Shown here piece after piece: positions 15,538-24,429 of a stretch of 64,000 nucleotides of DNA. This DNA comes from Pseudoclavibacter sp. AY1F1 (GTDB taxonomy: Bacteria; Actinomycetota; Actinomycetes; Actinomycetales; Microbacteriaceae), in the NCBI RefSeq assembly GCF_002931075.1, contig NZ_PSTQ01000002.1:248001-312000 (forward strand), written 5' to 3'. The first letter of the stretch is position 1. Every line of letters starts with the position of its first letter. A program made the translations under genes and the position numbers. A model generated the notes under the pieces. That model searched no databases. It worked only from the letters and a program-made list of their open reading frames with translations, and had not been told where the DNA came from.

Positions 15538-18500
15538 ATGCATCTGAAGAGCCTCACGATGAAAGGCTTCAAGTCGTTTGCGCAGCCGACGACCCTCGCG
15601 CTCGAGCCCGGAGTGACCTGCGTCGTCGGGCCGAACGGCTCCGGCAAGTCGAACGTCGTGGACGCGCTCGCCTGGGTCATGGGGGAGCAGGGCGCGAAGA
15701 GCCTCCGCGGCGGCAAGATGGAGGACGTCATCTTCGCCGGCACCGCGACCCGCGGGCCGCTCGGCCGCGCCGAGGTGACCCTCACGATCGACAACGCCGA
15801 CGGGATGCTCCCGATCGAGTACAGCGAGGTGACGATCCGCCGCACGCTGTTCCGCAACGGCGGGTCCGAGTACGCCATCAACGGCGACGGCGTGCGCCTC
15901 CTCGACGTTCAGGAGCTCCTGAGCGACACGGGTCTCGGCAAGGAGATGCACGTCATCGTCGGGCAGGGGCGGCTCGACGCAGTGCTCCGCGCGACGCCCG
16001 AGGAACGCCGCGGCTTCATCGAGGAGGCAGCAGGGATCCTCAAGCACCGTCGCCGCAAGGAGAAGACGGTGCGCAAGCTCGAGGCGATGGAGGCCAACCT
16101 CACCCGACTCCGCGACCTCACCAACGAGGTGCGCCGCCAGCTGAAGCCGCTCTCGCGGCAGGCCGACATCGCCCGCCGTGCGCAGGGCATCCAGGCCATT
16201 GCCCGCGATGCGAAGGCGCGCCTGCTCGCCGACGATGTCGTGCAGCTTCGCGCTGCCCTTCGGCTCGCGACCGGCATCGAGCAGGAGCGCTCCGAGGAGC
16301 GGGTCGTGCTGCAGGAGAAGCTCACGGCGGCCCTCAACCGGGCCGAACTGCTCGCCGCCGAGAACCGGGGCGACGCGGCCGACGGCGCCCGCCGCGTCGT
16401 GTTCGACCTCGAGAGCGTGCGCGAGCGCATCCAGAACCTCAACGCGCTCGCCTCGCAGCGCAAGGGGCTGCTCGTGTCTCGCCTCGAGTCGCCGGCGTTC
16501 GTGCCGACCGTGACCCTCGAGGCTGTTGACGTCGCCCGCCGCGAGGCCGAGGTGCTGGTCGACCGGGCCGCCGAGGCCGAGACGCTCTGGGACGCCACGA
16601 AGGTCGCGACCCAGGATGCACGTGCCGCGCTCGACCGCATCGACGTCGAGATCCAAGCGCAGGCGACCCGCATCTCCGCCTACGACCTCAGCCGCAGCGA
16701 GCTGCGCGGCGCCGCCGACACGGCCGCCTCGAAGCTCGCATCGGTGCGTGGCGAGGTGCTCAGGCAGCGCAACGCCCGCGATGCGGCGAACGACCGCCTC
16801 GCGCAGGCCACGAAGGCGAAGGAAGCGCTCGACGCGAGCGCGGCCCAGAGCGCCTCCGACTCGAGCGAGCTTGACGCCCTCTACAAGCGCGCCGAGGCCG
16901 CGCAGCGCGAGGCGGAGCAGCAGCTCGACGCCGGGCGCACGAAGGCCCACGAACTCGAGCGCGAACGCGACGCCCTCCAAGCTCGCGTTCAGGCGCTTAC
17001 CCTCGCGACGGCGGCCAAAGACGGCACGGCGGCCCTCCTCGCCGCCCGCCTCGACGGCGTCGAAGGCCCCGTCGCCGAGCACCTCCGCATCGACGAGGGC
17101 TACGAAGCAGCAATCGCAGCAGCTCTCGGCTCGACGGCGGATGCCGTGCTCGCGAGCGACGCCGACGCCGCCTTCCGGGTGCTCGAGCACGCCACGGGGG
17201 AGAAGCTCGGCCTCGTCGAGGTAGTCGCCGAGCTGGGCGCTCCTGCGTCGTCGACCAGCACAGCCCACGCCGCACTTCCTGCAGGGCTGCGCCCCGCCGT
17301 TGATCTCGTGCAAGCGCCACCCGCGATCGCCGCACTGCTCGCCCGTGTCCACGTCAGCGAGACGCTCCACGAGGCACGGGCCGCGGTTGCTGAGCTCGCG
17401 TCCGCCTTCGAGGGAAGTCCCGCAGCCAACGGGCTCACCGTCGTCACTCGCGCGGGCGAGGTCGTCACGAGTACGTCGCTGCGCGGTGGCTTCGCGGAAG
17501 AGGGAACCAGCCGACTCGAGCTGCTCGCGGCCCGAGACCGCGCATCCGCTCGCCTCACCGTCGTCACAGACCAGCTCGACCAGGCCGCGCTTGCGCTCGC
17601 CGAGCACCGCGCCGCATCGCAGGCCGCAAAGGCTGAAGCGAAGCGCACGCTCGACGCCCTCCGCGCCTTCGACGGCGCGCTTGCCGCCGAACGCGAGCAG
17701 CTCAACCGGGCCAGCGCGCGAGTGGATGCGGGCACCTCCGAGCTCGCGCGCGCCGCGAAGGCCTTCGACCTCGCCTCAGGCGGCGTCGAAGCGGCCGAGC
17801 AGGTGGCAAGCGCGGCCAAGGCGGCGCTCGCGGAACACGAGGCCCTGCCCCGCCCCGAGCTCGACTCCTCGGCGCGCGTCGACGCCAACGCCGGAGTCGA
17901 GCGCGCCCGCGAGGCAGAGGTCGAGGCGCGCCTGCAGCTCGAGACGCTACGCGAGCGCTCGCGCAGCGAACGCCTGCGCGCCGAGTCCCTCGAACGGCAG
18001 CTTGAAACTGACCGCCAGGCCGCAGACAAGGCCGCCCGCGAGACCGTCGTGCGCCGCGCGGAGCTCGCCCAGACCGAGCGTGTGCTCGTTGCCATCCCTC
18101 GCCTCGCCGCCGCCGTCCAGGAGTCGCTCGCCGAAGCCCAGCGGCAGCTCGCCGAAGCCGAGCGCGAGCGCGCCGCCCAGCACGAGGAACTCGGCCAGCT
18201 GCGCCAGACCGAGCAGCAACTGCGGGCCCGCCTCAGCGAGATCACCGAGGACGTGCACTCCATCGAGCTGCAGATCTACGAGAAGAAGAGCTCGCTGCGC
18301 TCCACGCTCGAACGCGCCGCGAGCGAGCTGCGCCTCGCCGAGGCCGTGCTCGTCGCCGAGTACGGGCCAGACCAGTTGGTGCCAGCCGACGACGACGCCC
18401 TGCGTGCCAAGGCCGAGCGCATCGCCTCCGCGCTCGCGGAGCAGCGTGCCAGGCACGAAGTCGCCGCAGAAGACGAAGAGCCTGCTGCCGACGCCGGAGA

Positions 18501-19512
18501 CTCGGCGGCCGCGACCGGCGCTGAGGAGCCGGAGACGACCGGTGAGAACGAAGCGACGGGTGCAGGTGGCCAGCCGAGCGCTTCCAGCGCTTCCAATGCA
18601 TCCAGCGCATCCAGCGCAGCGGCTACCGCCGAAGATGCCAGCAACACTGCACTGCCCGCCGCCGTCACCGACATGGCCGAACCCGCTGGCAACGCAACAC
18701 AGCCCAACATTCCGGCCAAAGCCCCGGCCGTGACCTCGGCAGCTGCCGGAGTCGTCCCGGCCATCGAGGAGCAGCTCGACGACGACCTCGCCGCGACCTT
18801 CGAGGACGATGCCGAGGAGGAGTTCGTCGGCGTGCCGTTCGTGCGCGCCGAGCAGCAGGCGCGCCTCGCCGCAGCCGAGCGCAAGATGTCGACGCTCGGC
18901 CGCATCAACCCGCTGGCGCTCGAGGAGTTCGCGGCTCTTGAGCAGCGGCACGCGTTCCTCGCCGACCAGCTCGACGACCTCGCGGCGACGAAGGCCGACC
19001 TGCTGCGCATCGTGGGCGACATCGACGAGCGCATGCGCACCGTCTTCGAGGCGGCGTTCGAAGACACGAGGGAGGCGTTCCACACGGTCTTCCCGATCCT
19101 CTTCCCCGGCGGCTCCGGCGACATCACCCTCACCGCGCCGGACGACATGCTCACGACGGGCATCGAGGTCTCCGTGCGGCCAGCCGGCAAGAAGATCGAG
19201 CGCCTCTCGCTGCTCTCGGGTGGCGAGCGCTCGCTCGCGGCCGTCGCCATCCTCGTGTCGATCTTCAAGGCGAGGCCCAGCCCGTTCTACATCATGGACG
19301 AGGTCGAGGCCGCGTTGGATGACGCCAACCTCGGACGCCTCCTCGCCGTGTTCGAGGAGCTGCGCGCCTCCAGTCAGCTCATCGTCATCACGCACCAGAA
19401 GCGCACCATGGAGATCGCCGACGCCCTCTACGGCGTCTCGATGCGCCAGGACGGCGTCTCCGCGGTCGTCGGGCAGCGCATCCAGCGCGATGAGGCACAG
19501 CCCGCCGCGTAG
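15538..19512 (+). CDS. smc: Chromosome segregation ATPase SMC, with long Ala/Ser-rich insert
   Basis: SMC dimers with ScpA/ScpB organise and segregate the chromosome. The Walker A motif GPNGSGKSNVVDAL is near residues 30-43, the ABC signature LLSGGERSLA near 1225, and Walker B FYIMDEVEAALDD near 1249. A hinge lies around residues 495-650 between two coiled coils. At 1324 residues it is longer than the usual 1150-1200, because a low-complexity segment (about residues 978-1090) rich in Ala, Ser, Glu and Asp interrupts the second coiled coil close to the head. The stop TAG (19510-19512) is in frame with the helicase remnant that follows immediately. Confidence 0.94.
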   Translation: MHLKSLTMKGFKSFAQPTTLALEPGVTCVVGPNGSGKSNVVDALAWVMGEQGAKSLRGGKMEDVIFAGTATRGPLGRAEVTLTIDNADGMLPIEYSEVTIRRTLFRNGGSEYAINGDGVRLLDVQELLSDTGLGKEMHVIVGQGRLDAVLRATPEERRGFIEEAAGILKHRRRKEKTVRKLEAMEANLTRLRDLTNEVRRQLKPLSRQADIARRAQGIQAIARDAKARLLADDVVQLRAALRLATGIEQERSEERVVLQEKLTAALNRAELLAAENRGDAADGARRVVFDLESVRERIQNLNALASQRKGLLVSRLESPAFVPTVTLEAVDVARREAEVLVDRAAEAETLWDATKVATQDARAALDRIDVEIQAQATRISAYDLSRSELRGAADTAASKLASVRGEVLRQRNARDAANDRLAQATKAKEALDASAAQSASDSSELDALYKRAEAAQREAEQQLDAGRTKAHELERERDALQARVQALTLATAAKDGTAALLAARLDGVEGPVAEHLRIDEGYEAAIAAALGSTADAVLASDADAAFRVLEHATGEKLGLVEVVAELGAPASSTSTAHAALPAGLRPAVDLVQAPPAIAALLARVHVSETLHEARAAVAELASAFEGSPAANGLTVVTRAGEVVTSTSLRGGFAEEGTSRLELLAARDRASARLTVVTDQLDQAALALAEHRAASQAAKAEAKRTLDALRAFDGALAAEREQLNRASARVDAGTSELARAAKAFDLASGGVEAAEQVASAAKAALAEHEALPRPELDSSARVDANAGVERAREAEVEARLQLETLRERSRSERLRAESLERQLETDRQAADKAARETVVRRAELAQTERVLVAIPRLAAAVQESLAEAQRQLAEAERERAAQHEELGQLRQTEQQLRARLSEITEDVHSIELQIYEKKSSLRSTLERAASELRLAEAVLVAEYGPDQLVPADDDALRAKAERIASALAEQRARHEVAAEDEEPAADAGDSAAATGAEEPETTGENEATGAGGQPSASSASNASSASSAAATAEDASNTALPAAVTDMAEPAGNATQPNIPAKAPAVTSAAAGVVPAIEEQLDDDLAATFEDDAEEEFVGVPFVRAEQQARLAAAERKMSTLGRINPLALEEFAALEQRHAFLADQLDDLAATKADLLRIVGDIDERMRTVFEAAFEDTREAFHTVFPILFPGGSGDITLTAPDDMLTTGIEVSVRPAGKKIERLSLLSGGERSLAAVAILVSIFKARPSPFYIMDEVEAALDDANLGRLLAVFEELRASSQLIVITHQKRTMEIADALYGVSMRQDGVSAVVGQRIQRDEAQPAA

Positions 19513-21981
19513 CCCGCCCGCCGTCCCCGCCCCGCCCGTGCCGCCGAGGCGCACGTCATCCTGTCGACGCCGACCGGTACCGGCAAGTCGCTGGTTGCGA
19601 TCGCGGCCCACGCCGCCTGCCTCGCGCAGGGGGGACGCAGCTACTACACGGCACCCATCAAGGCGCTCGTGAGCGAGAAGTTCTTCGCACTCGTCGAGAT
19701 CTTCGGCGCCGCGAACGTCGGCATGGTCACGGGCGACAGCTCCGTGAACCCGGATGCGCCCATCATCTGCTGCACGGCCGAGATCCTCGCGAACCTGGCC
19801 CTGCGCCAAGGGTCGGACGCCGACGTCGACCAGGTGGTCATGGATGAGTTCCATTACTACGGCGACCCCGACCGCGGATGGGCGTGGCAGCTGCCGCTGC
19901 TCATGCTGCCCGACGTGCAGTTCCTGCTCATGTCGGCGACGCTCGGCGACGTCACCGAGATCGTCGAGGACCTCGAGCGGCGCACGCAGCGCGACGTTTC
20001 GCTCGTGACCGGGGTCGAGCGTCCCGTGCCGCTCGACTTCTCGTACGTCGTGGCGCCGACCCACGAGACTGTCGAGAAGCTCGTCGAAGAGCGCAAGACG
20101 CCCATCTACATCGTGCATTTCTCGCAGGCCGCGGCCATCGAGCGGGCGCAGGCGCTGTCGAGTCTGAAGGTCGTCGACCGTGCAGGCCGGGATGCGATCG
20201 CCGAAGCCATCGGCGGGTTCCGCTTCACGACTGCGTTCGGCAAGGTGCTGTCTCGGTACGTGCGGGCCGGCATCGGCGTGCACCACGCTGGCATGCTGCC
20301 CCGCTACCGCCGCCTCGTCGAGACCCTCGCGCAGAAGGGCCTCCTGCGGGTCATCTGCGGCACCGACACCCTCGGCGTCGGCATCAACGTGCCTATCCGC
20401 ACGGTCCTCATCACGGCCCTCGCGAAGTTCGACGGGCAGCGGATGCGGCACCTGTCCGCGCGCGAGTTCCACCAGATCGCGGGGCGCGCCGGCCGCGCGG
20501 GCTACGACACGGCGGGCACCGTCGTCGTCGAGGCGCCAGAGCACGAGATCGAGAACGCCGCCGCCGTGCGCAAGGCGGGCGACGACGAGAAGAAACGCAA
20601 GCGCATCGTCAAGAAGAAGGCGCCGCAGGGCTTCGTGTCGTGGGGCGAGAAGTCCTTCGAGAAGCTCGTCTCCGCCGAGCCCGAGCCGCTCACCTCCCAC
20701 ATGCACATCACGGCGTCGATGATCATCAACGTCATCGCGCGCGGGGGAGACGTCTTCGGCAACGCGAAGAAGCTCGTCTACGACAACCACGAGAAGCCGG
20801 CCAGGCAGCGAGAGCTCGCGCTGCGGGCGATCGGCATCTTCCGCACGCTCGTGACGGCAGGCATCGTCGAGATCGGCAGGCAGGGTCGCATCACCCTCAC
20901 CGTCGACCTGCAGGCGAACTTCGCGCTCAACCAGCCGCTCTCGCCGTTTGCGCTCGCGGCCATCGAGCTGCTCGACCCTGACGCGGAGGCGGCTCCCGGC
21001 GACCGCGGTTCCGAGGAGAACACGAGTGGCGAGGGCGCGGTCGGCTCCGGCCACTACGCGCTCGACGTGGTCAGCATCATCGAGTCGACCCTCGACGATC
21101 CGCGCCCCGTGCTCTCGCAGCAGCAGTTCAAGGCGCGCGGCGAGGCGGTCGCGCAGATGAAGGCAGACGGCATCGAGTACGACGAGCGCATGGAGCGGCT
21201 CGAGGAGATCACGCACCCCAAGCCGCTCGAGGGCCTCCTCGCCCAGTCGTTCGAGCTGTTCGCGCAGCACGAGCCGTGGGTGCGCGACTTCGAGCTCTCG
21301 CCGAAGTCGGTGGTGCGTGACATGTTCGAGCGGGCCATGAGCTTCGCCGAGTACGTGAACTTCTACCAGCTCATGCGCAGCGAGGGCCTGGTGCTCCGCT
21401 ACCTGAGCGACGCCTACAAGGCGATCCGTCAGACGGTGCCAGACGAGGCGAAGACCGAGGAGCTGCTCGACATCATCGAGTGGCTCGGCGAGCTTGTCCG
21501 CCAGGTCGACTCGAGCCTCATCGACGAGTGGGCGTCGCTGGTCGACCCGGAGCAGCAGGCAGCGAGCGACGAGCCCGTCGTGCCGCCGGCCCCGCCGAGC
21601 GTCGTGGGAAACCGCCGCGCCTTCACGGTGCTCGTGCGCAACGAGATGTTCCGTCGCGTGCAGCTCGCTGCCCTCCAGCGCGACGAGGCGCTCGCCGAAC
21701 TCGACCCGGACGTCGACTGGTCGAAGGCCCTCGACGGTTACTTCGACGACCACGACACGATGGGGGTGGACGCGGCAGCACGTTCGCCGAAGCTCCTCAC
21801 GATCGACGACTCGGAGGGGCGCCAGTCTGGCGGCCTCTGGAGCGGCGTGTGGCGCGTGGAGCAGATCATCGACGACCCGGCTGGCGACCACGACTGGCGC
21901 ATCCGCGCCGACGTCGACCTCGCTGAGTCACACGAGGCGGGCGAAGCCATCGTCCGCGTCACCGACGTGTCGCGCCTCTAG
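19513..21981 (+). CDS. DEAD/DEAH-box RNA helicase (DUF3516 type), start codon and N-terminus missing
   Basis: From about 19552 the frame encodes a full helicase: motif I ILSTPTGTGKSLVA (19558-19599), TAPIKALVSEK, motif II VVMDEFHYYGDPDRGW, motif III LLMSATLGD, motif VI HQIAGRAGRAG, and a long C-terminal domain of the DUF3516 type found in actinobacterial helicases. No ATG, GTG or TTG occurs in frame between the smc stop and motif I; the first is GTG 19669, which would drop the Walker A motif. The 50-60 residues normally upstream (Q-motif region) are absent and replaced by about 13 codons of GC-rich filler. The rest is open for 820 codons, so any loss must be recent, or there is an assembly error at 19513-19550. 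Activity is doubtful as drawn. Confidence 0.75.
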   Translation, partial: PARRPRPARAAEAHVILSTPTGTGKSLVAIAAHAACLAQGGRSYYTAPIKALVSEKFFALVEIFGAANVGMVTGDSSVNPDAPIICCTAEILANLALRQGSDADVDQVVMDEFHYYGDPDRGWAWQLPLLMLPDVQFLLMSATLGDVTEIVEDLERRTQRDVSLVTGVERPVPLDFSYVVAPTHETVEKLVEERKTPIYIVHFSQAAAIERAQALSSLKVVDRAGRDAIAEAIGGFRFTTAFGKVLSRYVRAGIGVHHAGMLPRYRRLVETLAQKGLLRVICGTDTLGVGINVPIRTVLITALAKFDGQRMRHLSAREFHQIAGRAGRAGYDTAGTVVVEAPEHEIENAAAVRKAGDDEKKRKRIVKKKAPQGFVSWGEKSFEKLVSAEPEPLTSHMHITASMIINVIARGGDVFGNAKKLVYDNHEKPARQRELALRAIGIFRTLVTAGIVEIGRQGRITLTVDLQANFALNQPLSPFALAAIELLDPDAEAAPGDRGSEENTSGEGAVGSGHYALDVVSIIESTLDDPRPVLSQQQFKARGEAVAQMKADGIEYDERMERLEEITHPKPLEGLLAQSFELFAQHEPWVRDFELSPKSVVRDMFERAMSFAEYVNFYQLMRSEGLVLRYLSDAYKAIRQTVPDEAKTEELLDIIEWLGELVRQVDSSLIDEWASLVDPEQQAASDEPVVPPAPPSVVGNRRAFTVLVRNEMFRRVQLAALQRDEALAELDPDVDWSKALDGYFDDHDTMGVDAAARSPKLLTIDDSEGRQSGGLWSGVWRVEQIIDDPAGDHDWRIRADVDLAESHEAGEAIVRVTDVSRL

Positions 21982-23343: not shown

Positions 23344-23544
23344 GGGGTGTGTGCGTCGACGCGGGGCCCGTTGCGACGGATGATCGGTTGGGGGCAGCTC
23401 GTTTAGTAGCGTCCGCGAAACCCGAGATGTTGGCGCATTGTCCGAACTCATGACTGTGACTACGGGAAGCATCACCGCGCGGGTTGTGCGCCGCTCACTT
23501 CCCAAGTGAACTTTGCCTCGGAGAGACTGAGGAGAGGAACAGAC

Positions 23545-24429
23545 TTGCAAGACACAGATGCTGAGGGCGGAACGGGATCGGTTGACGAGGAGAGCGACAA
23601 CAACAGTCGAGGTCGGATTGTGTTCCCTGCTCTGGCCGCGGCAGGAGTCGGTTTTTTCGTGCTTGTTCTGACCTGGCGCGCTCAAACGCACCTTACGACG
23701 GCAGCACTCATCGTGATCGCGACCTTCGTCCTGACACTCCTGATCACGATCTTTAGCCAAGGAGTCATGCGGAGGGTCAACGAGATTCAGCGAATCGGGT
23801 GTGCATTCTTGCTGGGCGGAGCGGTTCTCTTCGGCGGCGCGAACTACTGGGCTTGGCTGGCGTATAAGGGCCTGATGGAGGCCAGCTACGCCATGATCTT
23901 CGGAGTTTCGTCGTGGCTGCTCGCGCTGGTCTGTGCTCTGCCGGTGCTCTCTGCTGGGAACGCGTCGGGGCCAGCAGTCCTTCGCGGCGTTTCGGCGATC
24001 ATGGTCGCGCTCGGATTCGTCTTGCCAGGTGCTTCGGCAGCTGCATCGGAAAGACCGATGAGCTTCAAGATTTACGGGGCTTGCGCCGAATTGGTGCCGG
24101 ACGATGTGACTCGAGTTTCGTATCTGGTGGCGCCCGGGGACCAGCCGCCGAGCGCCGCGGACTGGGAAATGGCCCCAGGTATTTCGTATTCCCACGGCAT
24201 ACCAAGCGGTCTCATGGATTGGCCGGCAGTGGTTGCCGAGGGCGATCAGATGTATTTCCTTGCCTACGGGAGCCGCGGTGAGTACTTCGGCGGGGACAAG
24301 TTCCCCGAACTGGGGCAAGCGTACGTCGGAGCCGTGACCCGCATTCTGGCTCTGGGGCACGATGCATCGTTGATCAACGATGACGATTGGGAGTCGGGTA
24401 TGAAGGGACGCGCCGAAAACTGTCAGTAG
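23545..24429 (+). CDS. Hypothetical membrane protein with external Cys-containing domain
   Basis: I do not recognise this family. I chose TTG 23545 because a strong Shine-Dalgarno site (AGGAGAGGA) lies six bases before it; an in-frame GTG at 23506 would add 13 residues. The 294-residue product has an acidic N-terminus, about five hydrophobic segments in the first 160 residues, and then a soluble region of about 135 residues with two cysteines (YGACAEL and the C-terminal AENCQ) that could form a disulfide outside the cell. AT-ending codons (ATT, TTT, TAT) are more frequent than in the flanking genes, suggesting later acquisition. Confidence 0.7.
   Translation: MQDTDAEGGTGSVDEESDNNSRGRIVFPALAAAGVGFFVLVLTWRAQTHLTTAALIVIATFVLTLLITIFSQGVMRRVNEIQRIGCAFLLGGAVLFGGANYWAWLAYKGLMEASYAMIFGVSSWLLALVCALPVLSAGNASGPAVLRGVSAIMVALGFVLPGASAAASERPMSFKIYGACAELVPDDVTRVSYLVAPGDQPPSAADWEMAPGISYSHGIPSGLMDWPAVVAEGDQMYFLAYGSRGEYFGGDKFPELGQAYVGAVTRILALGHDASLINDDDWESGMKGRAENCQ

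Follow-up and report, generated by a model that had tools for sequence, protein, structure and literature searches.

The locus and its genes

The stretch of DNA analysed here, which we call the window, comprises 64,000 nucleotides of Pseudoclavibacter sp. AY1F1. It lies on contig C13 (445,583 bases) of a genome, G000 in our comparisons, that is assembled in 29 contigs of together 4,096,156 bases. Two neighbouring genes are of interest: smc, and a gene for a helicase with a DUF3516 domain (Table 1). The smc product reaches 805.7 bits against the model TIGR02168 (SMC_prok_B), the cut-off of which is 567.35. The helicase is read in the same phase as smc and, as the first-pass annotation had pointed out, the TAG that terminates smc is all that separates the two frames. 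From 19513 up to 21978 this frame contains 822 open codons (820 in the earlier count). The observation that the helicase has no in-frame start before Walker A was also borne out, the earliest ATG, GTG or TTG being the GTG at 19669. It is not plausible that this codon starts an active ATPase, because the resulting product would be devoid of Walker A as well.

Table 1. Features at the smc-helicase join (window coordinates)
Feature	Position	Strand	Remarks
smc, complete	15538..19512	+	1324 aa; TAG 19510-19512; C-terminus VVGQRIQRDEAQPAA same as in relatives
Remnant of GC-rich smc-helicase spacer	19513..19543	+	From comparison with relatives' spacers
Junction	19543..19544	.	blastn homology to the helicases of G004, G005, G006 and G008 resumes at 19544
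5'-truncated DUF3516 Ski2-like helicase	19544..21981	+	Open up to native stop 21979-21981
Walker A, TGTGKS	19573..19590	+	Seen in helicase frame
First in-frame GTG	19669..19671	+	3' of Walker A
DUF3516 domain (PF12029)	20533..21969	+	E 2.9e-196; match spans the whole profile (1-464 of 464)

Two further observations were made in the surroundings. The smc gene contains an insertion of low complexity, rich in Ala, Glu, Ser and Thr (18490-18800), the length of which varies among relatives. Between a TerC/Alx gene and a phosphoglycerate-mutase-like gene lies an ORF of 307 aa (23506-24429); searches against Pfam and NCBIfam gave zero matches, and it is unmatched by ORFs of at least 100 aa in the compared 40-kb regions of the four closest relatives.

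From the features that characterize a DUF3516 helicase, the window copy possesses the PF12029 domain and Walker A with a DEAD/DEAH-type core (PF00270, E 3.9e-15; PF00271, E 8.7e-7), and it lacks the N-terminal Q motif and a start codon 5' of Walker A. A profile of 30 full-length DUF3516 helicase homologues matches the structure of Ski2 (4a4z) with E 3.9e-68, followed by Dob1 (4u4c, E 2.4e-62) and Hel308 (2p6r, E 6.4e-42). The gene is single-copy in all 20 genomes sampled, and a control genome of Corynebacterium glutamicum also has it. A search at E 1e-150 located it in 124 of the 150 family genomes sampled. The remaining 26 genomes gave no match at this threshold; none of the 20 listed among them exceeds 2.4 Mb, and the absences look as if the gene had been lost during genome reduction. 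A search for DUF3516 in a full-text collection returned no paper. Judged by comparison, the window helicase is almost certainly a common Ski2-like gene of the DUF3516 type that adjoins smc, is present once and was inherited vertically, and from which something is missing.

The missing 5' end in comparison with relatives

In a comparison set of one genome per species, the four closest relatives (G004, G005, G006 and G008, the last being P. terrae) share 98-99% protein identity. In all four of them smc and the helicase are neighbours and the helicase has a normal start. The earlier proposal that two genes were newly joined here is therefore not supported, since smc is also complete in the window and stops at its native end. 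What differs is the distance between the two genes. From the smc stop to the anchor AHVILSTPTG in the Walker A region, the relatives have 273, 328, 391 and 402 nt (the 328 nt of G005 being spacer plus 66 codons), while the window has 36 nt. Their helicases begin with an ATG 66 codons 5' of the anchor; the protein has 876 aa in G008, G004 and G006, the last also offering an ORF of 895 aa with an earlier possible start. The window protein aligns with the 876-aa protein only from residue 64-65. The loss of N-terminal residues announced by the first-pass annotation thus stands, and its size has to be corrected from 50-60 to about 64-65. Measured against the four relatives, about 237-366 bp are missing: the spacer has lost its 3' part, and the gene its start codon together with codons 1 to 64-65. 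Comparison of the junction with close relatives, which had been suggested as a check, has therefore shown an extra segment and a normal start in all four, and a deletion relative to them accounts for the lost start and N-terminus, as had been supposed.

No comparable case was encountered in wider samples. Starts were scanned at 90 homologue loci, two of which were set aside (the window itself, and L089, which is cut off by a contig end). All 88 comparable loci have an ATG or GTG at least 49 codons 5' of Walker A; because L006 and L034 are one P. terrae gene, at most 87 of these are distinct. In the search of 150 family genomes, the alignment begins at residue 64 in the window's genome and at residue 42 or earlier in 122 of the 123 other matched genomes. 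The exception, G150, aligns from residue 93, its N-terminus still being encoded in another frame; its helicase accordingly carries a frameshift, a lesion different from that in the window. Among the 124 matched genomes, the N-terminal DNA is absent only in that of the window. In seven rows of the same search the alignment is interrupted by one or two stop codons. The frame of the G150 orthologue (L182, G150:C1:222800-226800) shifts shortly after Walker A, by error or as a pseudogene.

When the P. terrae DNA lying between the smc stop and Walker A was searched against the window's assembly, the missing coding DNA was not found elsewhere. Relocation of the segment was rejected, as the only matches were two short partial ones (query 99-161 at 79% and query 42-127 at 71%), both in the spacer part. 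A 13-base repeat of the P. terrae spacer has 0 matches in the window, with 0.43 expected. A paralogue as substitute was rejected as well: PF12029 matches once in the genome, and the other helicase matches, at C1:897-898 kb, are more distantly related, with 39-43% identity.

The join itself was previously described as unusually GC-rich. Its segment 19513-19550 indeed has 92% GC; 38-mers of at least 92% GC occur at 15 places in the contig, the join included. This richness is nevertheless not peculiar to the join, since the first 38 nt of the spacer have 92% GC in G008 (89% in G005, 87% in G006 and 71% in G004). The join thus resembles native spacer rather than looking foreign. The relatives have a spacer of 75-204 nt, after which come about 65 codons without counterpart in the window. 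This spacer is hypervariable among close relatives (L005, L006, L007, L008). In G005 it includes a long tandem array of TGCC; the spacers of G006 and G008 contain an imperfect repeated element that has short partial matches on contigs C24 and C23 of the window's genome.

The lost part of the protein lies directly 5' of the Walker A strand and is predicted to form two helices (residues 34-47 and 54-64; pLDDT mostly 85-95 per block). Within it, W44, Y53, A55, Q56 and E58 do not vary in any of the 30 homologues aligned. Four of these residues (Y53, A55, Q56 and E58) belong to the Q motif, which is absent from the window; Q56 corresponds to the Q of Ski2 in the alignment. In DEAD-box helicases, according to PMC11498004, the glutamine of the Q motif bonds to the adenine of ATP. 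By analogy, we infer that Q56 may bond the adenine of ATP in the DUF3516 helicase.

Assembly error, deletion or an expressed remnant

Codon changes private to the window, counted over 810 shared codons, comprise 25 synonymous and 1 non-synonymous; corresponding counts in the relatives are 39/1, 31/3, 18/2 and 47/2, and dN/dS of the helicase between window and relatives is 0.015-0.024. The relaxed constraint by which a recent pseudogene would be recognized is not seen, and there is no trace of decay. Had the gene been dead for much of this branch, more amino-acid changes would be expected; the loss is therefore either very recent or absent from the organism.

We suggest that the assembly lost or mis-joined a stretch at the GC-rich, low-complexity smc-helicase spacer. 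If this is the case, the living strain would have a normal helicase gene, with no need for an unusual mode of expression. An assembly error had already been named as a serious alternative, and the state of the assembly, together with the GC-rich join, supports this: among 38 contig ends examined, 11 reach 80% GC or more over the outermost 40 nt, where 1.5 would be expected. These 38 ends (within L183-L222) belong to the 19 of 29 contigs that were covered, C4 being set aside because it is masked. A G-run motif occurs within 60 nt of 13 of the 38 ends (background 0.8%), two of which, the C1 start and the C14 end, have a common repeat; the join has such a motif too. Both the GC threshold and the motif were chosen after the ends had been seen. 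That many contigs end at or beside G-run or C-run tracts suggests loss of coverage at such DNA. Against a mis-join, the contig runs through the join instead of ending there. Further, G000 is shortened against both relatives at 3 of 45 G-run tracts and at 11 of 128 control places, some of the latter being near-duplicates. Because shortening is no commoner at G-run tracts, mis-joins at them are not systematic, and the idea that they concentrate there is unsupported. The two other shortened tracts looked natural; one of them codes for a linker of low complexity, variable in a sensor-kinase-like gene, and the second is a further place.

A generally bad assembly was considered and rejected. In a first crude pass, 21 of 179 ORFs of G008 and 28 of 173 ORFs of G006 were partial in G000; by inspection of the lists, though not gene by gene, these mostly differ in their start sites or represent divergent or shadow ORFs. 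After a filter for synonymous bias, 145 comparable genes of the contig remained (166 minus 21 set aside as absent or diverged), 143 of which look complete and 2 were flagged. One of the two is the helicase; the other is a mis-called ORF over antisense and a gene boundary and not a broken gene. Reverse tests flagged 0 of 145 genes in G008 and 1 of 147 in G006.

This completeness speaks against an artefact and for the main rival, a real and very recent deletion from the GC-rich spacer to about codon 65 of the helicase, which would leave a dead pseudogene and smc unaffected. Such a deletion takes the sequence as given, its left end falls in a hypervariable, repeat-rich and unstable spacer, and the gene is dispensable in that part of the family where no match was found. 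On the other hand, the ratio of private codon changes demands that the loss be very recent, ordinary coding DNA is found at the right end, and the join displays no obvious microhomology, as far as this can be judged without the intact sequence of the strain itself. We give the deletion somewhat less than an even chance. We put the artefact slightly ahead, at about an even chance of being correct, and this choice is inferred.

Expression of the truncated frame is far less probable than either. It was initially proposed that the helicase might be made by stop readthrough or rare starts. The product would then be an SMC-helicase fusion formed by readthrough of TAG 19510, or it would be initiated at a near-cognate codon directly ahead of Walker A (such as ATC 19558 or CTG 19561), upstream of which an SD-like GAGG is situated at 19546. 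The open frame of 822 codons is strongly conserved, but this constraint predates the lesion and requires no present expression. Two of the four relatives, G008 and G004, likewise have a helicase frame that shares the phase of smc and is open back to the smc stop, although normal starts are present. For this reason fusion or readthrough was rejected as leading reading, and the shared phase is a one-in-three coincidence. Neither the stop codon (TAA, TAA, TAG and TGA in the four relatives) nor the downstream phase (kept in two of four) shows the conservation that programmed readthrough would demand. Instead of a continuous frame or a fused orthologue, all four relatives have an smc stop and a separate helicase start. 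An arrangement like that of the window is used by none of the 88 comparable homologues, all of which have an ATG or GTG, and the first GTG comes only after Walker A. Any product would be deprived of the Q motif and both N-terminal helices with their invariant residues. We therefore regard it as very improbable that the truncated helicase is still produced, and just as improbable that a product made without a normal start would also work without the Q motif. The sequences favour neither readthrough nor rare starts over plain absence of product. A naturally short isoform or a lineage-specific SMC-helicase fusion gene is hardly credible: the shared phase is its sole recommendation, this phase is common by chance to two relatives with normal starts, and no comparable end was found among the 88 loci and 123 other family genomes. 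Literature searches on readthrough, misassembly and Pseudoclavibacter brought nothing directly useful. No new mechanism is called for by the evidence.

Relation to known helicases and to other broken genes

Whether the mis-join that we prefer or the deletion is correct, a truncated gene or a mis-assembly is an already known kind of thing. The significance of the case lies mainly in quality control, as such a gene would be annotated as a pseudogene or mis-started at GTG 19669, and it could be taken for a fusion. A deletion that proved real would offer a clean natural test of the dispensability of the DUF3516 helicase in a large-genome member of the family.

DUF3516 helicases, DEAD/DEAH-box proteins of Actinomycetota, resemble the Ski2-like SF2 proteins Ski2 and Mtr4/Dob1 of yeast and Hel308 of archaea across both helicase domains. 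The best reported stretches of similarity to these structures correspond to the helicase core, and in the profile listing the C-terminal DUF3516 domain has no solved-structure match as a separate stretch. In contrast to Ski2, the window copy is without the Q-motif region that aligns with that of Ski2. The nearest intact counterpart is the orthologue from P. terrae THG-MD12 (L034, NZ_WBJX01000005.1), which is 99% identical over 812-813 residues and has smc as neighbour and the same domain order; compared with this protein of 876 residues, the window copy lacks residues 1 to 64-65 as well as the start codon. A resequencing study of Vibrio fischeri (PMC2330054) provides a parallel of another sort. 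That study reports for the most part frameshifts and additional sequence, whereas here sequence is missing; in both cases, a single broken gene within an otherwise intact set was flagged by means of close relatives.
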